A DNA stretch of 37,804 nt from an uncultured Pseudomonadota bacterium (GTDB lineage Bacteria; Pseudomonadota; Gammaproteobacteria; Burkholderiales; Thiobacillaceae). The DNA is taken from contig CAILNT010000048.1 of the NCBI GenBank assembly GCA_903835655.1, positions 1-37,804 of the forward strand, written 5' to 3'. Shown in pieces: positions 11,902-37,804 of this stretch. Under the pieces are notes generated by a model that searched no databases, was not told the origin of the DNA, and saw only the letters and a program-made list of their open reading frames with translations. Positions within the stretch are counted from its first letter, which is position 1, and the number at the start of each line of letters is the position of its first letter. Position numbers and translations under genes: made by a program.

Positions 11902-12795
11902 TTATCCGCGCAAGTGGCTCAAGTGGTCATGATAGCGGGCACGGTAGAGGAGGCGGCGGTGTTCCGCGCGGTCGGAGAAGCCGGTGCGGGTGTGCAGGAC
12001 GTTGTTGCAGAGTACGCCCATGCCGGGCTCCAGCCTCAGGCTGAAAGCGCCGGGCGGGTCTCCGCCCAGCAACGCGTCGAGCGCCTGGACCGCAGCCAGG
12101 GTGGGGGCATCCTGTTTCCAGGCGATGCTCTTGGTGCGCGCGGTGTAGCGTAAATGCAAACGGCCGTCTTCCACCGCGAAGGCGGGACCGGGCTCGTCGG
12201 GGCGGGCGATGCCGTTCGCGTCGACCCGGGCCGGGATGGTCATGGCGTCCGGGGCCATGAGCGCGCGGATGTGCGCGGGATCGGCGTCGCGCAGGGCGAT
12301 GTAGGCCAGTTCGTGGTCGTAGAGATCGTTGCTACCGCCCGTGTCGGCGGCGCGCACGCAATGCAGCGCCATCGCCCAGATGCGCCGCTTGGGCGGGTTG
12401 TAGTAGCCATCGGTATGCCAGCGGATGCGGTGATGGGTGTAAGGGATGAATTCGCCGCGTTTCTGCCCGTCCTCCTCGTGCGGCGTGAGGCTGGAAATGC
12501 CGTCCTCGTCCGCCAGCCAGTTGGCATCGAGATGGGTCAGGCCGAATTGCGCCGACAGCTGCCTCACGGCTTCCTTGTCCTCGGTTTCACCCAGGCGGGT
12601 GCGGTAGACCACCACGTTGGTCTTGACGATGCGCTGCCATAGGGCCTGGTATTCGGCGACCGTGAGTTCGCGCGGATCGCTCAATTCGACGATGAGGTCT
12701 TCGCTGCGACTGGGGTAATCCGCCAGTTTGGCCGCCCGCCAAGCCTGATAGCCGGCGCTGTTGTCGGGATGGAAGGGGGACGTCGTGGGGATCAT
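11902..12795 (-). CDS. TauD/TfdA-family Fe(II)/2-oxoglutarate dioxygenase
   Basis: This 297-residue protein belongs to the TauD/TfdA superfamily, which uses Fe(II), 2-oxoglutarate and O2. The iron ligands appear as His and Asp in IRWHTDGYYNPP (about residue 137) and the distal His in CNNVLHTRTGF (about residue 265). The 2-oxoglutarate-binding Arg lies in RRLLYRARYHD. Members oxidise taurine, alkyl sulfates, sulfonates and many other substrates, and I cannot assign the substrate here. I chose ATG at 12793-12795 (MIPTTSPFHPDN) because GGAG lies just upstream; a GTG/ATG start 11 codons earlier would put repeat DNA into the protein. The location beside sulfur genes makes an organosulfur substrate possible but unproven. 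Confidence 0.82.
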   Translation of the reverse strand: MIPTTSPFHPDNSAGYQAWRAAKLADYPSRSEDLIVELSDPRELTVAEYQALWQRIVKTNVVVYRTRLGETEDKEAVRQLSAQFGLTHLDANWLADEDGISSLTPHEEDGQKRGEFIPYTHHRIRWHTDGYYNPPKRRIWAMALHCVRAADTGGSNDLYDHELAYIALRDADPAHIRALMAPDAMTIPARVDANGIARPDEPGPAFAVEDGRLHLRYTARTKSIAWKQDAPTLAAVQALDALLGGDPPGAFSLRLEPGMGVLCNNVLHTRTGFSDRAEHRRLLYRARYHDHLSHLRG

Positions 12796-12827
12796 CTTGT
12801 TCTCCGCAGGTGGGGTTGGCGTCAGCA

Positions 12828-12872
12828 TAACCCGACATCATCCGCTGTCGGGTTACGCGCCGCTAACCCGAC
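12828..12872. repeat. REP-like element, family C
   Basis: TAACCCGAC (12828-12836) is followed by its inverse GTCGGGTTA (12847-12855) and a second direct copy, TAACCCGAC (12864-12872). The first two can pair as a 9-bp hairpin with a 10-base loop. It occupies most of the gap between the TauD-like gene and the gene upstream. Confidence 0.6.
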
Positions 12873-12891: not shown

Positions 12892-13473
12892 CTACGGATT
12901 AGCGCCTACCGGGTAGAACCCGTCCACGCTCTTCTTCACCGTGCCCATCATTTCGGGCATCTCGATGTCCATGACCTGATCCTGGATCCAGGTCTGGTCG
13001 GATCGTTCCATGACTTCGCGGATTTGCAAGGAGAGGAAGCGCAGCGCGGGAAAGCTGGCCTTTTCTTCGGGGAAAACGAATTCCGAGTAGTCGACCATGC
13101 GCCGGTTGATCAACTCGATGAAACCGGCCTGGTGGTCGTAGTCTGGATCTTTCTGGCCATCGGAAAATTCCAGGATGTTCTGTTCCATGATCTCGGCCAG
13201 GCGCACGCCCACCGCACTGACCAAATCCTGGCGCTGTTCGTCCTCCATGCGGTTGAAGGCGAGGCGGTCGACGTAATGGAGGAGAAAACAGGCCAGTTCG
13301 GCGATGATGCGAAAGCCGCGCTGGGGCGTGATGATGTCGTAGTCGGCGTGGGACAGGTTGTCGATACAACGATCGGACAAACGCCAGATGGTCGAGGCGA
13401 GCACGGTGGCGACCTCGGCGGGATCGCGTTGCTCGCCTTCCTTCTTGAACCAGGTGGTCTTGATGCGTAGCAT
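12892..13473 (-). CDS. Conserved-looking hypothetical protein (193 aa), function unknown
   Basis: I do not recognise this protein. It starts MLRIKTTWFKKEGEQRDPAE at ATG 13471-13473, with AAGGAA 8 bases upstream. The frame extends far upstream but only as a shadow of the sulfurtransferase gene. The sequence is rich in charged helices (EVATVLASTIWRLSDRCIDN, FRIIAELACFLLHYVDRLA, LRFLSLQIREVMERSD) and has no signal peptide, membrane segment or nucleotide-binding motif. It reads as a soluble helical cytoplasmic protein. It sits 16 bases after the sulfurtransferase stop, so it is probably cotranscribed with it, and this suggests a role in sulfur handling. That is inference from position only. Confidence 0.75.
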   Translation of the reverse strand: MLRIKTTWFKKEGEQRDPAEVATVLASTIWRLSDRCIDNLSHADYDIITPQRGFRIIAELACFLLHYVDRLAFNRMEDEQRQDLVSAVGVRLAEIMEQNILEFSDGQKDPDYDHQAGFIELINRRMVDYSEFVFPEEKASFPALRFLSLQIREVMERSDQTWIQDQVMDIEMPEMMGTVKKSVDGFYPVGANP

Positions 13474-13489: not shown

Positions 13490-14338
13490 TTACTCGCCGG
13501 TGGCGACGGGTCTTGCGGGATCGCGTATCCATTCGCTCCACGAGCCTGGATAGAGCCGCGAGCCGGACAGTCCGGCGACTTCCATCGCCAGCAGGTTGTG
13601 GCAGGCGGTGACGCCGGAGCCGCAGGAATGGATGACCTGCCAGGGCGCGCGGCCATGCAACAGCGTCTGGTAATTCTCGCGCAGGGCCTCGGGCGGCAGG
13701 AAGGTGCCGTCGATGTCGAGGTTTTCGTCGAACGGCCAGTTGACGGAGCCTGGAATATGTCCGGCGACGGGGTCGAGCGGCTCGTATTCACCGCTGAAAC
13801 GACGGTCGGGACGGGCATCGATGATCAGGGCATCGCCCGTTTGCGAGGCGCGCAGCACATCATCGACATGGGCGATCTGGCTGGGTTCCGCAAGGCAGAC
13901 AAATTGCGCCTTGCCAGGCTGCGACTGGCTCGCCGTGAGCGGCCGCTGTTCCTTGCGCCACTTCGGGTAACCGCCGTCGAGCAGGGCCGCGCCGGGGTGG
14001 CCCAGCCAGCGCAGCATCCACCACAGACGCACGGCCATCGCGCCATAGCTGTCGTCATAGACCACGACCTGCTTGTTGACGCCCACACCCCAGGCGGAAA
14101 GCCTGGTCGCCAGCATGTGCATGTCGGGCAGGGGATGGCGCCCGGAGGTTTCCGTGATCGGCGCGGCCATGTCCTGATCGAGATGGACATAGTGCGCACC
14201 GGGAATGTGATCCTTGAGGTATGCCTGCCTCCCGGCTTCCGGGTCGGTCAGGGTAAAACGGCAATCGAGCACGACCCAGTTGGGTTCGTCGAGATGCGCA
14301 GCGAGGTCTTCGGTGGCGACGAGTGTGCTGATGAACAT
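13490..14338 (-). CDS. sseA: 3-mercaptopyruvate sulfurtransferase-type tandem rhodanese
   Basis: This 282-residue cytoplasmic enzyme has two rhodanese domains. The N-terminal, structural one (about 1-140) contains VVLDCRFTLTDPEAGRQAY, and the catalytic one (about 165-280) ends in WSEWIRDPARPVATGE. The active-site loop CGSGVTACHN is the six-residue version typical of 3-mercaptopyruvate sulfurtransferase, not the CRKGVTA loop of thiosulfate sulfurtransferase. It would move sulfane sulfur from mercaptopyruvate (or thiosulfate) to thiols through a cysteine persulfide. It lies between an RspA-like DsrC homologue and an unknown gene on the same strand, next to dsr, so feeding cytoplasmic persulfide to the Dsr/Tus relay is plausible but unproven. 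Confidence 0.9.
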   Translation of the reverse strand: MFISTLVATEDLAAHLDEPNWVVLDCRFTLTDPEAGRQAYLKDHIPGAHYVHLDQDMAAPITETSGRHPLPDMHMLATRLSAWGVGVNKQVVVYDDSYGAMAVRLWWMLRWLGHPGAALLDGGYPKWRKEQRPLTASQSQPGKAQFVCLAEPSQIAHVDDVLRASQTGDALIIDARPDRRFSGEYEPLDPVAGHIPGSVNWPFDENLDIDGTFLPPEALRENYQTLLHGRAPWQVIHSCGSGVTACHNLLAMEVAGLSGSRLYPGSWSEWIRDPARPVATGE

Positions 14339-14432: not shown

Positions 14433-14765
14433 TTAGTACCCGCCCTTGCCGAAAGGCTTGGTCATGCCGGATATCCGGGCTGCCTGGCGAGCGGGCTGGC
14501 TGGGGAAGAGTTCATAGAGCTTCTTCTTCCAGTCGGTGTCGGGATGAAGTTCGTCCAGTTCCGCGACCAGGTTGCGGAAATTCGGGGTGTGACCATCCTC
14601 CCGGTACTTCTCACGCATGAAATTGATGACTTGCCAATGCTCGTCGGTCAGGGTGATTTTCTCGGCCGCGGCGATGATCTCGACGATCTCGTCGCTGAAG
14701 TTGGCTTCCAGCAGAAAGTCCTCTTCGCCGGTTTCCAGTTCCTCACCGTTCAGAATGTAGCTCAC
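14433..14765 (-). CDS. Cysteine-free DsrC/TusE-family paralogue (RspA-like)
   Basis: This 110-residue protein has the DsrC/TusE fold signature: LNGEELETGEEDFL, then TDEHWQVINFMREKYRE, then KKLYELFPSQPARQAARISG and PFGKGGY. It contains no cysteine at all. The position of the first DsrC redox cysteine is Ala (QAARISG against QACKIAG in the dsrC gene of this window), and the penultimate Cys of the C-terminal arm is Gly. It therefore cannot carry persulfide or trisulfide sulfur. DsrC homologues lacking both cysteines have been named RspA and are thought to have regulatory or binding roles. The start is GTG at 14763-14765, with AGGAG placed 7 bases upstream. It lies 51 bases after a Cas6-like gene and could form an operon with it. 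Confidence 0.88.
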   Translation of the reverse strand: MSYILNGEELETGEEDFLLEANFSDEIVEIIAAAEKITLTDEHWQVINFMREKYREDGHTPNFRNLVAELDELHPDTDWKKKLYELFPSQPARQAARISGMTKPFGKGGY

Positions 14766-14816
14766 AGTTTCTCTCCTATTTCACAGGTTGAATAAACACA
14801 TGACCGACGTGGGCGA

Positions 14817-15470
14817 TCAGCCGGCCGACACTTCCTTGATCGACTTGTGCGGTATGAAGATGCCACAGCCCCAGACACGGTGCAGTCCCAGTCCCTGTTC
14901 CTGCACAGCCAGTGAATCCACCAGGCTGAGGTCATGCAACATCAGCGAGTGGCCGCTGATCACCCCGTCGGGCGTCCTCATTTTACGTTGCATCCCCGGT
15001 ATCAGTCCGCACTGGATGCCTCTTTCGTCGAGTAGGCGGCTCACTTCTAGCACGATTTCTGCCTCATCCAGCGAGCCCAGCGTGACCAGGTGGGAATACA
15101 GGGTGCCAAATGGCGTCAGGTTCCGCTCTTTCAAGGCGCCGATTTCCAGGTTTCCAGCACCCGGGTCGATGTGCTTTCCCACCAGAGTGCGCGCGGCTTC
15201 CAGGCAGGCGACGGGAAGTCGCAGCACCAGTTTCACGCGGCGATTGATGACGAGGTTGTCATTGCGCCCGCTCGGTGCTCCATGCACGGGGTGGACGGCT
15301 GCCTCCGCGGTGTCGGCCAGCCAGGGGAGATGGCGCAAGAGCTCGGAGTAGAGTGCCGGACCATGATCGGCGGGGATTTCCGCGCCGGCGAGATCGTAGT
15401 GACAATCCACCACCTTGGGCGTGTATGCATGGTCCTTGACGGCATCCCATTCAGGGTTGAACATGCGCAT
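14817..15470 (-). CDS. Stand-alone Cas6/Cmx6-like endoribonuclease-family protein
   Basis: This 217-residue protein resembles the Cas6/Cmx6 family (type I-MYXAN Cas6). Matching segments are VVDCHYDL, IPADHGPAL with His36 as a possible catalytic residue, LPWLADT, AVHPVHGAPSG, RRVKLVLRLP and the LMLHDLSLVDSLAVQEQGLG stretch. The Gly-rich C-terminal RNA-binding loop reads RVWGCGIFIPHK. Cas6 proteins bind and cut CRISPR repeat RNA, but there is no CRISPR array or other cas gene in this window. It starts 3 bases after the stop of the 79-residue gene, so the two are translationally coupled, and an RspA-like gene follows. I infer a host RNA-binding or RNA-processing role connected with sulfur metabolism. 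An orphan Cas6 serving a distant array is the alternative. Confidence 0.75.
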   Translation of the reverse strand: MRMFNPEWDAVKDHAYTPKVVDCHYDLAGAEIPADHGPALYSELLRHLPWLADTAEAAVHPVHGAPSGRNDNLVINRRVKLVLRLPVACLEAARTLVGKHIDPGAGNLEIGALKERNLTPFGTLYSHLVTLGSLDEAEIVLEVSRLLDERGIQCGLIPGMQRKMRTPDGVISGHSLMLHDLSLVDSLAVQEQGLGLHRVWGCGIFIPHKSIKEVSAG

Positions 15471-15473
15471 GGG

Positions 15474-15713
15474 TCAGTCCTCGGCGGCTGTGGGTAGTTG
15501 TGTCGCCAGTGGTGTGGCCCACTCCGACATGGTTTCCGCCCAGAGCTTCGCGGTGGCGGGGTCGATGTCGAAAATTGTGAAACGCGCGCCCCGTTCCCGG
15601 ATGCGCAGGCGTAGCATCGGCGTCCCGCCGGCTTCGTAGCGGGCCTCCTGCAACTCGATTTCCTGGTTGCCGAAGGGGTTGCGGAATTTGAGGAGGGATG
15701 TGATCTGGTCCAT
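15474..15713 (-). CDS. Small hypothetical protein (79 aa), first gene of the leftward unit
   Basis: I do not recognise a named family. The protein starts MDQITSLLKFRNPFGNQEIE and contains RLRIRERGARFTIFDIDPAT, then a helix (TAKLWAETMSEWATPLA). The first half looks like a short beta-sheet, and there is no signal peptide, cysteine or metal motif. The ATG at 15711-15713 has a poor ribosome binding site. It is coupled to the downstream Cas6-like gene, with 3 bases between stop and start, and its promoter region is shared divergently with dsrA. Conservation of this small gene with its two neighbours would support a common function. Confidence 0.65.
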   Translation of the reverse strand: MDQITSLLKFRNPFGNQEIELQEARYEAGGTPMLRLRIRERGARFTIFDIDPATAKLWAETMSEWATPLATQLPTAAED

Positions 15714-15804: not shown

Positions 15805-15842
15805 CCTACCCGAACGGGTAGGCCGGTGCCTACCCGAATGAG
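15805..15842. promoter_or_regulatory. Palindromic operator-like site between the leftward unit and dsrA
   Basis: CCTACCCGAACGGGTAGG (15805-15822) is a perfect 18-bp inverted repeat. A second copy of its left half (CCTACCCGAATGAG) begins 24 bases later at 15829, and a weaker third version (TTACCCCCTCGGAATG) begins near 15851. Repeated TACCC half-sites at helical-turn-like spacing suggest binding of a dimeric helix-turn-helix regulator, perhaps of the LuxR/NarL type. No such regulator is encoded in this window. Confidence 0.5.
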
Positions 15843-15991: not shown

Positions 15992-17293
15992 ATGGCTAAG
16001 CAAATGATTGATACGCCGAACCTGGACGAGCTCGAGACCGGCCCGTGGCCCTCGTTCGTTACGGGTCTGAAGCGCCTGGCAAAAGACAACGACATGATGG
16101 TCGACCTGATGGGTCAGCTGGAGACCTCCTACAGGACCAAGCTGGGCTACTGGAAGGGCGGTACCGTGGGCGTGGTCGGTTACGGCGGCGGCGTGATTCC
16201 CCGCTTCACCGAGCTGAAGGACGAAAACCACAAGCCCATCTTTCCCGAGGCTGCCGAATTCCACACCCTGCGCATCCAGCCGCCGGCCGGCATGCATTAC
16301 ACCTCCGACCTGCTGCGCCAGATGTCTGATGCCTGGCTGGAAACCGGCGGTTCCGGCCTGATCGCCTTCCATGGCCAGTCCGGCGACATCATGCTTCAGG
16401 GGATCAAGACTGCGGACGTGCAGCGTTCCTTCGACAGGTTCAACGAAATGGGCTTCGATCTGGGCGGTGCCGGTCCTGCCCTGCGTACCTCGATGTCCTG
16501 CGTGGGTGCCGCTCGCTGCGAAATGTCCTGTTACGACGAAGCCCGCGCCCTGCGCATCGTCATCAACAACAACCTGGACGACATGCATCGTCCCTCCCTG
16601 CCGTACAAGTTCAAGTTCAAGTTCTCCGGCTGCCCCAACGATTGCATGAATTCCGTGCAGCGTTCCGACATGGCCACCATCGGCACTTGGCGTGACAGTA
16701 TCCGCGCCGACGAGAAACTGGCGCGTGCCTGGTATACCGCCCACAGCATGGAAGACACCATCAACATGGTCGTCAACCACTGCCCGACCAAGGCCATCCA
16801 GCTCAAGAAGAACGACGGCTCCGCAGCCGCCGAGGGCGTGACCCGCGTGGTTCTGTCCGACGAAAACTGCCTGGAAATCGACAATCACAACTGCGTGCGC
16901 TGCATGCATTGCCTGAACGTCATGCCCGGTGCGCTCCTGCCCGGCAAGGACAAGGGCGTGACCATCCTGGTCGGTGGCAAGTCCGTGCTGAAGATCGGCG
17001 CGTCCCTGGGCACCGTGGTGATTCCGTTCATGAAGCTCGAGTCGGACGAAGACTTCGAGAAGCTGAACGATCTGTCCCGCACCATCCTCGACTTCTTCGC
17101 GGAAAACGCGCTGGAGCACGAGCGTACCGGCGAGATGATCGAGCGTATCGGCCTGGTCAACTTCCTGGATGGCATCGGTCTGGAGATCGATCCCAACATG
17201 ATCAAGGAGCCGCGCGCCAACCCCTACATCCGCATGGATGGCTGGGACGAGGAAGCCGCCAAGTGGTTCGAACGCAAGCAGGCCGCCGCTTGA
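15992..17293 (+). CDS. dsrA: Dissimilatory sulfite reductase alpha subunit, oxidative type
   Basis: DsrA pairs with DsrB in the cytoplasmic siroheme-[4Fe-4S] enzyme that, in this type of bacterium, oxidises DsrC-bound or reduced sulfur to sulfite. The 433-residue protein has the coupled siroheme/cluster motif as CVGAARC (Cys170/176) with CPNDC (Cys214/218). An inserted ferredoxin domain around residues 293-307 contains CVRCMHC. I chose ATG at 15992-15994, just after AAGGAGAAAGACGG; an upstream extension of 23 codons has no homologous look. It is the first gene of the dsr operon, with a 278-base divergent region upstream and a strong stem-loop downstream before dsrB. Confidence 0.97.
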   Translation: MAKQMIDTPNLDELETGPWPSFVTGLKRLAKDNDMMVDLMGQLETSYRTKLGYWKGGTVGVVGYGGGVIPRFTELKDENHKPIFPEAAEFHTLRIQPPAGMHYTSDLLRQMSDAWLETGGSGLIAFHGQSGDIMLQGIKTADVQRSFDRFNEMGFDLGGAGPALRTSMSCVGAARCEMSCYDEARALRIVINNNLDDMHRPSLPYKFKFKFSGCPNDCMNSVQRSDMATIGTWRDSIRADEKLARAWYTAHSMEDTINMVVNHCPTKAIQLKKNDGSAAAEGVTRVVLSDENCLEIDNHNCVRCMHCLNVMPGALLPGKDKGVTILVGGKSVLKIGASLGTVVIPFMKLESDEDFEKLNDLSRTILDFFAENALEHERTGEMIERIGLVNFLDGIGLEIDPNMIKEPRANPYIRMDGWDEEAAKWFERKQAAA

Positions 17294-19636: not shown

Positions 19637-19972
19637 ATGCCTATGGTTGAAGTTGCCGGCAAATCTTTTGAAGTCGACGAGGAAGGCTACCTGACCAATC
19701 TGGCCGATTGGAACCAGGACATCGCCGGATATCTGGCGCAGGAAGAGAAGGTCGAAATGACCGACTCGCATTGGGAAGTCGTGAATTTCCTGCGTGAATA
19801 CTACGAAGAGTATCAGATCGCGCCTGCCGTTCGTGTTCTGACCAAGGCCATCTCCAAGAAGCTGGGTGCGGAAAAGGGCAACAACAAGTACTTGTACGAA
19901 TTGTTCCCCTACGGCCCCGCCAAGCAGGCTTGCAAGATCGCCGGTCTGCCCAAGCCGACTGGCTGTATCTGA
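19637..19972 (+). CDS. dsrC: Sulfur carrier protein DsrC
   Basis: DsrC is the central sulfur carrier. It takes persulfide from DsrEFH and forms a trisulfide or disulfide between two cysteines that DsrAB and DsrMKJOP act on. The 111-residue protein has both redox cysteines on the C-terminal arm: Cys99 (QACKIAG) and the penultimate Cys110 (PTGCI), 11 apart as in true DsrC. The core SHWEVVNFLREYYEEYQIAP is canonical. The ribosome binding site TTAAGGAGTATCGCT is very strong, fitting the high level of DsrC expected. Three stem-loops follow the gene. Confidence 0.98.
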   Translation: MPMVEVAGKSFEVDEEGYLTNLADWNQDIAGYLAQEEKVEMTDSHWEVVNFLREYYEEYQIAPAVRVLTKAISKKLGAEKGNNKYLYELFPYGPAKQACKIAGLPKPTGCI

Positions 19973-20044
19973 TCAATCGAGATTGATCTCCGGCGGGCTG
20001 TGCCCGCTGGGCTCCCTTGGTTTCCTGCCCCGTCTCCCACGGGG
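19971..20044 (+). other. Cluster of three stem-loops after dsrC
   Basis: Three perfect inverted repeats stand in a row. They are GATCAATC/GATTGATC (19971-19988, loop GA), GCGGGC/GCCCGC (19993-20007, loop TGT) and CCCCGT/ACGGGG (20028-20044, loop CTCCC). None has a T-tract. They cover most of the gap between dsrC and dsrM and could protect the upstream dsrABEFHC message or partly stop transcription, giving more dsrC than dsrM. Confidence 0.6.
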
Positions 20045-27062: not shown

Positions 27063-28730
27063 ATGCTGTATCTCTCCGCCGCACACAAATCATCCGGCAA
27101 GACCACACTAACCCTGGGGCTGTGTCGCGCCCTGGCGAATCGTGGACTGAAGGTACAGGCATTCAAGAAGGGGCCGGACTATATCGATCCGATCTGGCAC
27201 GGGCTCGCGGCGCGTGGGGCCAGCTACAACCTGGATTTCCACATGATGCGCGAGGCCGAGATCACGGCGTTGTATGCGCGTCATGCCGCGGCGGCCGACA
27301 TCGCCCTGATCGAGGGCAACAAGGGCCTCTACGATGGCATGGACGTGGAAGGCAGTAACAGCAACGCCGCCCTGGCCAAACTCCTGGGTGTGCCTGTGGT
27401 GCTGGTGCTCGATTGCGTCGGCATGACGCGTGGCATCGCCCCCCTGATCCTGGGCTACCAGGCGTTCGATCCTGGCGTGAAGATCGCCGGCATCATCCTC
27501 AACAAGGTCGGCGGACCACGCCATGAGGGCAAGCTGCGTGAAGTGATCGCGCGGTATACGCAGGTGCCGGTATTGGGCGCGGTCTACAAGGACGAGCGCC
27601 TGGCCATCACCGAGCGCCACCTGGGCCTCGTTCCCGGCAACGAAGCCGTGGAAGCGGATGCCCGTATCGAAATCATGGCCGCCATCGTCTCGGCCCAGGT
27701 GGACATCGACCGTCTGCTGGAGGTCGCATCCAGTTGGAACCCTACAAAGCAGGCAGGGATGCCTGCGCTACAAGGCACCGACCGTCTGCTGGAGGTCGCA
27801 TCCAGTTGGAACCCTACAAAGCAGGCAGGGATGCCTGCGCTACAAGGCACCGACAGTCTGCTGGAGGTCGCATCCAGTTGGAACCCTACAAAGCAGGCAG
27901 GGATGCCTGCGCTACAAGACACCGACCGTCTGCTGGAGGTCGCCTCCAGTCGGGACCCTTCTTTGCACAAGGAGGGCAGGGGGGATTTGTCCTCGCTAGC
28001 CGCTAGGCAGGGTGGCGCAAATTCCCCCACGCCCCCCTTCGATAATGGGGAGCGGGGGCTGCGCATCGCCTATGCGCACGACCGTGCATTCGGTTTCTAT
28101 TATCAGGAAGACTTGGACAGCCTGCGCGCGGCCGGGGTCGAGTTGCTGCCCGTCGATACGCTGGTAGAGGTCTGCTTGCCCGAAGTGGATGGCTTGCTGC
28201 TGGGTGGGGGGTTTCCCGAAATGTTCATCGAGGAATTGGCCGCCAACGTCGATCTGCGCCGCGACATCGCCCGGCGGATCGAGGCTGGGCTGCCGGTCTA
28301 TGCGGAATGTGGCGGCCTCATGTATCTGTCGCGATCGTTGCGCTGGGGCGAGCGGCAAGGCGAGATGGTCGGCATGGTTCCAGGAGACGCCGTCATGAGC
28401 GATCGTCCCGTGGGTCGCGGTTACGCGGAGCTCGAGGAAACCGCCTTCGCGCCCTGGGCGCCCCAGGAAAAAATGGTTCCCGCGCACGAATTTCACTACT
28501 CGCACCTGGAAAATCTGCCGGCCGGCCCCAACTACGCTTACCGCGTGCGCCGGGGACAGGGCATGGATGGTCGCAACGATGGTTATGTTTACCGCAATCT
28601 GCTCGCCGCTTACTGCCACCGACGTGGTTCTGGAGAGCAGGGTTGGATCGCGCCTTTTCTCGAGAAAATTTGCACCCACCGTGCCTTATTACGAAACTTA
28701 GATCCACTATCGAAAGGAAATCAATCATGA
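27063..28730 (+). CDS. dsrN: DsrN, siroheme amidase (cobyrinate a,c-diamide synthase family) with an expanded linker
   Basis: DsrN is a CbiA/CobB-type glutamine-dependent amidotransferase thought to make siroheme amide for DsrAB. The P-loop domain (residues 1-215) opens MLYLSAAHKSSGKTTLTLGL. The class I glutaminase-like domain (about 335-550) has LLLGGGFPEMF, the Cys-containing YAECGGLMYL and HEFHYSH. Between them the protein, at 555 residues, is about 100 residues longer than usual. The extra part is three copies of a 24-residue unit containing SSWNPTKQAGMPALQGTD plus a Gly-rich stretch, all encoded by repeat DNA. Both catalytic domains look intact. ATG at 27063 starts the family match; an in-frame start further upstream would include the terminator. 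Confidence 0.92.
   Translation: MLYLSAAHKSSGKTTLTLGLCRALANRGLKVQAFKKGPDYIDPIWHGLAARGASYNLDFHMMREAEITALYARHAAAADIALIEGNKGLYDGMDVEGSNSNAALAKLLGVPVVLVLDCVGMTRGIAPLILGYQAFDPGVKIAGIILNKVGGPRHEGKLREVIARYTQVPVLGAVYKDERLAITERHLGLVPGNEAVEADARIEIMAAIVSAQVDIDRLLEVASSWNPTKQAGMPALQGTDRLLEVASSWNPTKQAGMPALQGTDSLLEVASSWNPTKQAGMPALQDTDRLLEVASSRDPSLHKEGRGDLSSLAARQGGANSPTPPFDNGERGLRIAYAHDRAFGFYYQEDLDSLRAAGVELLPVDTLVEVCLPEVDGLLLGGGFPEMFIEELAANVDLRRDIARRIEAGLPVYAECGGLMYLSRSLRWGERQGEMVGMVPGDAVMSDRPVGRGYAELEETAFAPWAPQEKMVPAHEFHYSHLENLPAGPNYAYRVRRGQGMDGRNDGYVYRNLLAAYCHRRGSGEQGWIAPFLEKICTHRALLRNLDPLSKGNQS
27709..27950. repeat. In-frame 72-bp tandem repeat within dsrN (three units plus part of a fourth)
   Basis: The word AGGTCGCATCCAG recurs at 27721, 27793 and 27865 with a period of exactly 72 bases. 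A fourth, partial copy begins at 27937. The units are almost identical. Each contains AGGCAGGGATGCCTGCGCTA, whose reverse complement (TAGCGCAGGCATCCCTGCCT) resembles one arm of the palindrome at 431-492. Seventy-two bases encode 24 residues, so copy number can change without a frameshift. Confidence 0.9.
27969..28039. repeat. Second inverted repeat within the dsrN linker
   Basis: AAGGAGGGCAGGGGGGATTT (27969-27988, then G) is the near-perfect inverse of CAAATTCCCCCACGCCCCCC (28018-28037, then TT), with a short palindromic centre (GCTAGC). This G-run/C-run hairpin is of a different type from the 72-bp unit. It reads through in frame as a Gly/Ser-rich linker. Confidence 0.7.
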
Positions 28731-35995: not shown

Positions 35996-36165
35996 TCGAC
36001 ACGCCTCATTAGTCCTGTTTTCGCAAGATATAGATCGAAAAACAAAAGCCATGAATGTTTTAGATGGCTGTAAAGTATTGTCGCTTAGGGCCGATACCCC
36101 GAGACATGTGAAGAAGTAAATCATCCTTGTCCGGGGCAATGACGTTTGCGGACGGGGGATCTGGG

Positions 36166-36181
36166 CTCAAGAAAGAGCCGC
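36166..36181 (+). other. Leader hairpin before the repeat protein
   Basis: GGCTC and GAGCC pair around AAGAAA, 15 bases before the start codon and next to the ribosome binding site GAGGAGAAG. The 35996-36196 interval contains no other gene I can support. Upstream GTCCG/CGGAC can also pair. No known riboswitch was recognised. Confidence 0.35.
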
Positions 36182-36196
36182 ACGAGGAGAAGTAAA

Positions 36197-37804
36197 ATGG
36201 GTTCATTCGTTCTGGGTCTGACGACCGCGCAGGTCTCCGTGTTGACCACTGAGCAACTCACGGCGTTTACGACGGCGGATATGGTGGCTTTCTCCACCAG
36301 CCAGATTGCAGCCCTCAACACCACGGGCCTGGCTTCCCTGAACTCCTCTCAAGTGGCGGCCTTGGAGACGCAGGATGTCGCCGCGCTCAAGACCAGCCAG
36401 ATCATCGCGCTGACCACGAGCCAGGTGGCCAATGGTCTGACGACTGACCAGGTGCAGGCCCTCGGAACGGCCCAGGTTGCGGCCCTGACTACCAACCAGA
36501 TCGCCAATGGCCTGACCACCGACCAGATCGTGGCACTCGGCAGCGCGCAACTGACCGCCCTCTCGACCGCGCAGGTTGTCGCTCTCGGCACGGCTCAAGT
36601 CGCTGCCATCGAAACCGGCGATCTGGCCAGCCTCAAGACCAGCCAGATCGCGGCTCTCACCACTAATCAGGTCGCTAATGGTCTGACCACAGACGAGATC
36701 GTGGCGCTCACGACCGCCCAGGTCGCGTCCCTCACCACCGCCCAGGTAGTGGCACTCGGCACGACTCAGGTCGCCGCGCTGGAAACCCGTGATGTGGCCG
36801 CGCTCAAGACCACGCAGATCGCGTCGCTGACCACCAATCAGGTCGCCAATGGCCTGACGACCGATCAGATCGTGGCCCTCACGACCGCGCAGGTCGCCTC
36901 CCTCACGACCGCTCAGGTGGTTACTCTCGGCACGGCCCAGGTCGCCGCGCTGGAAACCCGGGATCTGGCTGCCCTTCAGACCGCTCAGATCGCGGTACTG
37001 ACGACTGCCGAAATTGCCGCCCTCACCACCGACCAAGTCACTGCCGGATTGACGACAGTCCAGGTTGTCGCCTTCACCACCAATCAGGCTGCCTATGGCC
37101 TGACCACCGACGAGGTCATCGCGCTCACCACTTCCCAGGTCGCGTCCCTGACCACCGCCCAGGTCGCGGCTCTCACGACCGCCCAGGTGGCCGCCATGGA
37201 AACCGGGGACTTGGCCAGCCTCAAGACCAGCCAGCTCGCGGCGCTCACCACCAACCAGGTCGCCAATGGCCTGACGACCGACGAGATCGTCGCCCTCACG
37301 ACCGCCCAGGTTGCCTCCCTCACGACCGCCCAGGTGGTGGCACTCGGCACGGCCCAGGTTGCCGCGCTGGAAACCCGTGACGTGGCCGCGCTCAAGACCA
37401 GCCAGATCGCCGTGCTGACGACCGCGGAAGTCGCCGCCCTCACCACCGACCAGGTCGCCGGCGGCTTGACGACCGCGCAGATTGCGGCCCTCACCACCAG
37501 CCAGGTCGCCTCTGGCCTGACCACCGACCAGATCGTGGCGCTCGGCAGCGCGCAACTGACCGCACTCACTACCTCCCAGGTCGCGTCTCTCACCACAGCC
37601 CAGGTCGCCGCGATGGAAACCGGAGACCTGGCCAGCCTCAAGACCAGCCAGATCGCGGCTCTCACCACCAACCAGGTTGCTAATGGCCTGACGACCGACG
37701 AGATCGTCGCACTCACGACCGCCCAGGTCGCGTCTCTCACCACCGCCCAGGTGGTGGCGCTCGGCACGGCCCAGGTTGCCGCGCTGGAAACCCGTGACTT
37801 GGCC
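36197..37804 (+). CDS. Large octapeptide-repeat protein, 5' part (runs off the right edge)
   Basis: Translating from ATG 36197 (ribosome binding site GAGGAGAAG) gives an uninterrupted frame of 536 codons up to the window end, starting MGSFVLGLTTAQVSVLTTEQ. Apart from the first few residues it consists wholly of eight-residue units of the type LTTxQVAA, with a 9-residue variant containing VANG. Units group into larger blocks marked by ETGD/ETRD, spaced 57 or 82 residues apart. There is no signal peptide and no cysteine. Helix-capping Thr-Thr-x-Gln followed by Val-Ala-Ala-Leu suggests a regular solenoid. Function is unknown; a very large surface, adhesin or filament protein is possible. Minus-strand frames in this region are shadows of the repeats. 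Confidence 0.85.
   Translation, partial: MGSFVLGLTTAQVSVLTTEQLTAFTTADMVAFSTSQIAALNTTGLASLNSSQVAALETQDVAALKTSQIIALTTSQVANGLTTDQVQALGTAQVAALTTNQIANGLTTDQIVALGSAQLTALSTAQVVALGTAQVAAIETGDLASLKTSQIAALTTNQVANGLTTDEIVALTTAQVASLTTAQVVALGTTQVAALETRDVAALKTTQIASLTTNQVANGLTTDQIVALTTAQVASLTTAQVVTLGTAQVAALETRDLAALQTAQIAVLTTAEIAALTTDQVTAGLTTVQVVAFTTNQAAYGLTTDEVIALTTSQVASLTTAQVAALTTAQVAAMETGDLASLKTSQLAALTTNQVANGLTTDEIVALTTAQVASLTTAQVVALGTAQVAALETRDVAALKTSQIAVLTTAEVAALTTDQVAGGLTTAQIAALTTSQVASGLTTDQIVALGSAQLTALTTSQVASLTTAQVAAMETGDLASLKTSQIAALTTNQVANGLTTDEIVALTTAQVASLTTAQVVALGTAQVAALETRDLA

Follow-up and report, generated by a model that had tools for sequence, protein, structure and literature searches.

Cas6 at the dsr locus

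The subject of this analysis is a gene for a Cas6-like protein on a 37,804-nucleotide stretch of DNA (the window; contig CAILNT010000048.1, from an uncultured bacterium of the Thiobacillaceae), where it lies next to the genes for dissimilatory sulfite reductase (Dsr). Three genes are read leftward there, in the order DUF6967, cas6-like, dsrC-like, and all are divergent from dsrA (Table 1). Rechecking of the coordinates confirmed the order and spacing given in an earlier note on this DNA: 3 bases separate the DUF6967 open reading frame (ORF) from the cas6-like gene, and 51 bases separate the latter from the dsrC-like gene, which starts with GTG at 14765. The His36 and the glycine-rich RVWGCGIFIPHK C-terminus that the note described are both found in the Cas6-like protein. 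The DsrC-like protein has no cysteine, also as the note had it, and the canonical DsrC of the window keeps its two C-terminal cysteines. We refer to the cysteine-free paralogue as RspA-like, the name used in the earlier note; no database match supplies it. The comparisons below indicate that gammaproteobacteria with reverse Dsr carry a Cas6-family protein as a regular part of their genomes, an association that is real, widespread and undescribed in the literature that we searched.

A predicted full-length Cas6

The window protein matches PF09559 with an E-value of 1.8e-51 (175.3 bits against a cut-off of 26.7) and the NCBIfam family TIGR02807, Cas6/Cmx6 of type I-MYXAN, with 143.4 bits against a cut-off of 98.85. 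An AlphaFold model, for which 35 sequences from the window and GTDB were used, reaches a predicted local distance difference test score (pLDDT) of 90.5. In a Foldseek search of the PDB, ranks 1-45 were all entries from systems of clustered regularly interspaced short palindromic repeats (CRISPR), namely Cas6, Cse3, a RAMP protein and Cascade complexes. The top structure match, with a template modeling (TM) score of 0.82, is 8fcu_B, the Cas6 of a type I-B transposon, which is also the nearest solved sequence. Judged by its model, the protein is a full-length Cas6 with a two-domain RAMP fold and not a fragment.

Residue conservation was counted in 174 alignment rows (91 from the class draw described below, the window included, 80 from GTDB contigs and 3 phylum-draw loci), which hold some genomes twice (for example as L031 and L171). 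His36, which by analogy would be the catalytic histidine in the first helix, is kept in 168 rows. Arg78 and Arg84 are present in all 174 and Glu136 in 172; Gly193, Gly195, Gly201 and Gly203 each occur in 169-172. Position 155 is lysine or arginine in 151 rows, and position 209 in 172. Within the dsr group, Arg78, Glu136, Gly159 and an N-terminal tryptophan hardly vary (88-91 of 91 rows); three type I-MYXAN control Cas6 proteins differ or have gaps at these positions. The window protein is a divergent member of the dsr group, since it is without the N-terminal tryptophan and the NGW.RP segment. No relative was found in viral contigs or phage records, and a search of a viral fold library matched nothing meaningful. 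The seven plasmid matches are all cyanobacterial and annotated as Cas6/Cmx6.

Co-occurrence of Cas6 and dsrA

We sampled 274 genomes evenly from the class Gammaproteobacteria (in the GTDB sense, betaproteobacteria included) and called dsrA at a match of E 1e-60 or better. The Cas6-like protein was found in 91 of these genomes and dsrA in 93; both are present in 87, Cas6 only in 4, dsrA only in 6 and neither in 177 (Fisher 1.5e-58, without phylogenetic correction). Most of the mismatches may be assembly breaks, because each of the Cas6-only loci (genomes G067, G093, G127 and G186) has less than 2.5 kb available upstream, and in five of the six dsrA-only genomes (G070, G079, G110, G123, G207 and G211) the contig runs out on the cas6 side of dsrA or close to it. 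The contig of G123 breaks within a gene that in some relatives comes before cas6. In G211, ∼4.7 kb are available and contain no Cas6. A larger profile run on the dsrA-only assemblies found no Cas6 beyond one noise-level match. The gene is retained in three genomes of only 1.0-1.1 Mb that have no cas1 match (G039, G142 and G255).

The earlier note had allowed that its genes might not be conserved outside this genome. The Cas6-like gene is in fact present in 91 of the 274 class genomes and has 276 relatives on GTDB contigs. A second draw, of 349 genomes from the phylum, yielded 52 with dsrA and 4 with Cas6, all four in the window's own order; here every genome was searched with profile A1, and the larger profile A3 was applied to 5 of the 48 dsrA genomes from outside the class. 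By these searches, the Cas6-like protein is a conserved component of reverse-Dsr genomes in gammaproteobacteria and not in all bacteria.

Linkage to dsr and retention under selection

The neighborhood was taken to extend as far as 8 kb to either side of Cas6. Genes of the dsr set lie within it in 66 of the 91 class-draw loci, with dsrA divergent and upstream in 65. Among the loci without nearby dsr genes, 12 have less than 5 kb available upstream and 13 have at least 5 kb. All 13 of the latter come from genomes with dsrA elsewhere, so that the coupling of Cas6 to dsr is more than adjacency. TauD still stands beside Cas6 in four of the 13 unlinked loci (L053, L070, L082 and L117), and no cas gene was recognized by eye among the listed neighbors of the other nine. 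In two related small genomes (L076 and L088), the unlinked Cas6 is divergent and adjoins RNase III-like and Era-like genes, as read from the sequence. A scan of GTDB contigs returned 276 Cas6 relatives, and the GTDB locus counts rest on the best 80 of these 276. In 70 of the 80, dsr genes lie within 8 kb; among the remaining 10, only 2 have at least 5 kb available upstream. Titles among the relatives include Thiobacillus, Sulfuritalea, Thioploca, Sedimenticola, Chromatiaceae, Acidiferrobacter and a Lucinoma symbiont.

The dsr-group proteins form a single clade that excludes the three outgroup rows (support 0.954). The outgroup consists of L113, L114 and L115, L116 having fallen below the score threshold, and L113 is not a clear CRISPR control because it has no annotated cas neighbors. 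Cas6 distances track those of DsrA across 107 loci, with a Mantel r of 0.616 against a null maximum of 0.16 (not corrected for phylogeny). In nine pairs, the ratio of nonsynonymous to synonymous polymorphism (pN/pS) of Cas6 lies between 0.105 and 0.58, indicating purifying selection; it exceeds that of DsrA in 8 of the 8 pairs where both were comparable. The frequent adjacency of Cas6 to dsr might suggest a functionless neighbor carried along with the operon, but purifying selection, retention in reduced genomes and the 13 unlinked copies, all in dsrA genomes, already refute this explanation, to which we give almost no credence.

Gene order around Cas6

The common gammaproteobacterial order is dsrA, then divergent TauD, a protein of ∼60 residues, sometimes one of ∼235 residues, Cas6 and the RspA-like protein. 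TauD is encoded on the Cas6 strand in 66 of 91 loci and in many relatives is the first gene divergent from dsrA. The unnamed ∼60-residue family is found near Cas6 in 74 of 91 loci by one-step phmmer and the unnamed ∼235-residue protein in 34; two examples of the former had no Pfam or NCBIfam match. Members of the ∼60-residue family, which lie upstream of Cas6 in L058 and 73 further loci of the class draw, read MLWLSEVLLQ...MDVKPPF.DTPEDWEDRLEAAF, and the ∼235-residue family follows in some.

Thiobacillus- and Sulfuritalea-type loci, including the window, have the order DUF6967, Cas6, RspA-like and then, in part, rhodanese, P153 and TauD. The earlier note had treated the first three as a unit. 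The pairing of Cas6 with the RspA-like protein is indeed widespread, but DUF6967 is a lineage-specific neighbor, adjoining Cas6 in 4 of 91 class-draw loci and 19 of the best 80 GTDB contigs. Since only 7 of the 274 genomes carry DUF6967, we rejected it as a member of a universal trio. Four reverse-dsr loci from outside the class (L244-L247, read as alphaproteobacterial) carry TauD with the ∼60-residue protein and/or DUF6967 and have neither Cas6 nor RspA in the stretch examined; no Cas6 was found anywhere in these genomes. From these neighborhoods we infer that Cas6 and RspA appear to have joined an older TauD-DUF6967 group in the gammaproteobacteria. The DUF6967 model has four strands and a helix (beta4-alpha). 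Its Foldseek matches are weak (best E 0.1), with PUR-alpha repeats at ranks 1-10 and a PC4 homologue at rank 18; this resemblance is no more than a first hint that the protein may bind single-stranded nucleic acid.

Table 1. Coordinates of the cas6-like gene, its neighbors and the features discussed in the text
Feature	Position	Strand	Evidence
DUF6967 protein, 79 aa	15474..15713	-	PF22295 E 5.6e-28; AF2 pLDDT 89.0
Cas6/Cmx6-like, 217 aa; His36, Arg78, Arg84, Gly-rich C-terminus	14817..15470	-	PF09559, TIGR02807, AF2, Foldseek
RspA-like DsrC paralogue without cysteine, 110 aa, ending in KGGY	14433..14765	-	PF04358 E 1.3e-30
3-Mercaptopyruvate sulfurtransferase-like, two rhodanese stretches	13490..14338	-	PF00581; NF008557 under its cut-off
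P153, protein without confident family (start approximate; 153 aa searched)	12892..13473	-	Recurs in relatives
TauD/TfdA-family dioxygenase	11902..12828	-	PF02668 E 1.9e-17
Inverted repeat CTACCC-GAAC-GGGTAG, divergent promoter	15806..15821	.	Alignment of five close relatives
dsrA (ATG 15992), first gene of dsr operon, divergent from cas6 unit	15992..17293	+	
Canonical DsrC, two C-terminal Cys	19637..19972	+	PF04358 E 1.7e-48
Hairpin downstream of dsrC, examined as a possible Cas6 target	19990..20010	+	

The P153 protein of the window had no significant Pfam or NCBIfam match. At the far end of the window (36146-37804) lies a long ALTTAQ-repeat protein (PF20080, 19 stretches) that extends past the window end.

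Cas6 and CRISPR

Both its family name and its passing of the TIGR02807 cut-off suggest that the protein could be the enzyme that processes CRISPR RNA (crRNA) for a CRISPR system elsewhere in the genome. The home genome does have such repeats. One contig carries a 36-base repeat array with cas1-cas2, and another carries the 24-base core of this repeat four times together with three RAMP-family matches. The earlier note's statement that there is no CRISPR here therefore stands for the window, where none was seen, but not for the genome. On the second contig, a PF10040 Cas6 match ends ∼140 bases from the repeats. This locus is type III-like, with its own, different Cas6, and crRNA processing thus appears to have its own enzyme.

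Across the class draw, cas1 is present in 105 of 274 genomes: 43 of the 91 with Cas6 and 62 of the 183 without it. The resulting association is mild (odds ratio 1.75, p 0.035), and dsrA itself gives 1.77. The odds ratio of Cas6 with dsrA, by comparison, is 642. The 48 carriers without a cas1 match largely refute a crRNA role. Further points against it are the persistence of the gene in the three ∼1 Mb genomes that have no cas1, the PF10040 Cas6 already beside the home repeats, and the rarity of arrays near the gene. A scan of the 174 loci that detected six positive controls, L114 and L115 among them, returned only two array-like matches: the window has a 72-bp tandem repeat in dsrN, and L097 has a repeat of three copies. 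The gene is thus not found mainly beside CRISPR arrays, the outcome that the earlier note had set against its own proposal, since 172 of 174 loci have no array-like repeat. No cas3, cas8, cas7, cas5, cas1 or cas2 was found among the six scanned window ORFs around Cas6; the true type I-MYXAN systems (L114-L116) do have annotated cas genes. We consider a crRNA-processing role very improbable, and the earlier description of a stand-alone Cas6-family protein linked to dsr rather than to CRISPR is borne out by the 87 shared genomes and the 48 of 91 carriers without cas1.

Two observations made alongside concern look-alikes. The dsrN repeat of the window (27707-27959; 3.5 copies, 96% match) mimics a small CRISPR array. 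A Gloeobacter plasmid (L113, 8974-9765) encodes a Cas6/Cmx6 without annotated cas neighbors, possibly another solo Cas6, close to a gene of the phosphoadenosine phosphosulfate reductase family.

The RspA-like partner

The RspA-like gene follows Cas6 in 67 of the 91 class-draw loci. The earlier note called this protein cysteine-free, and that description needs qualifying: the penultimate cysteine is absent from all 141 DsrC-like neighbors of Cas6, yet in 16 of them a cysteine occurs elsewhere in the last 20 residues, and in 12 of the 16 it sits, by eye, at the position of the upstream DsrC cysteine. The KGGY tail is found in 140 of 141, the remaining reading frame ending in PEAD. All 107 canonical DsrC proteins have two cysteines within the last 20 residues.

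Search for an RNA target and a promoter box

The earlier note had proposed that Cas6 acts on hairpins between dsrC and dsrM. In most loci the sequence that follows dsrC does contain a strong hairpin (n=106; median z -2.37, with 68% below -1.5), and a perfect stem of at least 7 pairs occurs in 80 of 106 loci compared with 22 of 106 mononucleotide-shuffled controls. The hairpin is followed by a T-rich stretch in only 13 of 93 loci. Its arms are biased, G-rich on the 5' side and C-rich on the 3' side, by up to 0.52 bit, and this shared bias could be weak support for a common binder. The loops vary, however, and the 3' flanks hold at most 0.16 bit; the sequence after dsrC is not common even to the window's three aligned close relatives. 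Three of five Cas6-less dsr loci are also structured after dsrC (z below -1.5), and in three reduced genomes that carry Cas6 the stems at this place are no more than weak and AT-rich. Because of this variable sequence, the occurrence of structure without Cas6 and the weak stems of reduced genomes, the dsrC-dsrM target proposed earlier is unsupported, although Cas6 may still cut hairpins generically.

Other spacers offered no better candidate. The dsrA leader and the spacers after Cas6 and after TauD have median structure scores near zero; the spacer after RspA gives a weaker signal (median z -1.24) that appears terminator-like by eye, and the signal after dsrA occurs also without Cas6. No Rfam family matched in seven loci. 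At the dsrM start we noted by eye, in about ten loci (e.g. L037, L058 and L069), a hairpin CAGAAAC-ATGTC-GTTTCTG that encloses the start codon and pairs leader with coding sequence.

The region between dsrA and the divergent operon contains a palindromic box, TAYCCC-N3-5-GGGRTA. Of 136 loci, 40 match it exactly and 80 with no more than one mismatch, compared with 4 of 136 shuffled sequences and 1 of 115 stretches of dsrB coding sequence; the four reverse-dsr loci from outside the class have 3-5 mismatches. The window carries CTACCC-N4-GGGTAG, and its near kin have the same with small changes. The box is probably the site of a putative dsr regulator. TAYCCC-N4-GGGRTA is absent upstream of the unlinked Cas6 genes (nine loci), and the box therefore shows no co-regulation of these copies. 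According to PMC11267869, dsrC of Allochromatium vinosum is 'relatively unchanged' (log2 -1.25) when dsrAB (-4.7 and -4.5) and other dsr genes fall, and PMC3397948 cites dsrEFH and dsrC transcripts as above dsrA on sulfide. These A. vinosum data, in which no Cas6 is involved, fit unequal control along the dsr operon.

Possible functions

The reading that we favor, tentatively and at somewhat less than even confidence, is that a domesticated Cas6 binds, and probably cuts, structured RNA and so tunes reverse-Dsr function. Cas6 would have left CRISPR, or would share an ancestor with it, and become a standing part of gammaproteobacterial reverse-Dsr sulfur oxidation. It would bind a specific structured RNA made during sulfur oxidation and, in lineages that keep His36, would cut that RNA. 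The RspA-like protein might act alongside it as a non-catalytic DsrC mimic that reports sulfur load, and the outcome would be a post-transcriptional tuning of dsr expression or stoichiometry. A bolder version, which we regard as doubtful, is that a CRISPR endoribonuclease was domesticated once and early in gammaproteobacterial sulfur oxidizers, to become an obligatory RNA processor of reverse Dsr. Its partner would be a dead DsrC that gauges the filling of the sulfur-carrier pool, and sulfur oxidation would thereby gain a level of control through RNA.

Several observations weigh against the favored reading, in addition to the variable hairpin loops, the flat spacer scores and the empty Rfam scan described above. 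His36 is replaced by asparagine or serine in four Thiobacillus-type rows (L132-L135), by asparagine in L074 and by tyrosine in L195; L151, likewise titled Thiobacillus, retains it. An asparagine at this position need not mean lost function, since the solved transposon Cas6 has one there. The dsr-linked proteins have a median isoelectric point (pI) of 6.3 (quartiles 5.76 and 8.24), compared with 9.3-9.4 in the three cyanobacterial proteins L113, L114 and L115, all values being computed from approximate starts; values this low are not typical of generic RNA binders. In 22 of the 91 loci, no RspA-like gene adjoins Cas6 despite at least 1.5 kb of downstream sequence. None of the five non-class reverse-dsr genomes searched with profile A3 has a Cas6, the loci L244-L247 are without one, and there remains the mild association with cas1.

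The main rival is a protein-level role in which the Cas6 fold serves, free of RNA, as an adaptor that assembles, loads or gates DsrAB/DsrC, and the RspA-like protein fills the DsrC site without a reactive cysteine. The pI below that of the three comparison proteins, the replacement of His36 in 6 of 174 rows and the failure to find a target RNA in spacers, hairpins or the Rfam scan all favor it, as do a coupling that follows dsrA presence even when the genes are unlinked and the retention of Cas6 in ∼1 Mb genomes, where little regulation would be expected. Against it, the near-invariant residues typify RNA-binding Cas6 (His36, Arg84 and the glycine-rich loop), together with Arg78 and positions 155 and 209, and the model is that of a complete Cas6 and no fragment. 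We judge the protein-level role to be rather unlikely.

A third possibility is that the Cas6-like protein acts on a general RNA such as tRNA or rRNA, in connection with the TusBCD-TusE sulfur relay, and balances tRNA thiolation against sulfur oxidation. DsrC and TusE are related, as are DsrEFH and TusBCD (PMC3397948), and unlinked copies adjoin ORFs that read as RNase III-like (L076 and L088) or RNA-methyltransferase-like (L107). Cas6 was, however, undetected in the 177 class genomes without dsrA, which must have tRNA, and we consider this role improbable.

Significance and comparison with known systems

If the favored tuning of reverse Dsr by a domesticated Cas6 is correct, a major sulfur-cycle pathway of free-living and symbiotic oxidizers holds an overlooked core protein that is annotated as a CRISPR gene, and the protein offers both a testable way into dsr gene control and a case of Cas6 employed in metabolism. 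For CRISPR surveys, the results counsel caution, in that a TIGR02807 match in a sulfur oxidizer is by itself no proof of CRISPR. We found no description of Cas6 in a dsr locus in the literature searched, which covers few subscription papers, and neither 'CRISPR' nor 'cas6' appears in the main text of two papers on Dsr evolution (PMC11406059 and PMC10504309).

Compared with Cas6/Cmx6 of type I-MYXAN, the dsr-group proteins share the profile family, the position of the histidine and the glycine-rich C-terminus, but they differ in that no adjacent array or cas gene was seen, in residues of their own, in a lower pI and in the link to dsr. The Cas6 of the type I-B CRISPR-associated transposon (8fcj and 8fcu) matches over nearly the whole length, with a profile E-value of 1.2e-30 and TM scores of 0.82-0.83; it sits in a Cascade complex and has an asparagine aligned at the His36 position. 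The RspA-like protein belongs to the same family as DsrC and TusE (PF04358), with a KGGY tail in place of GCI/GCV and the penultimate cysteine lost. A precedent for cas genes outside CRISPR-cas loci is provided by the solo Cas4 nucleases of PMC5704561; these are a different protein, and the opening of that abstract mentions no metabolic locus.

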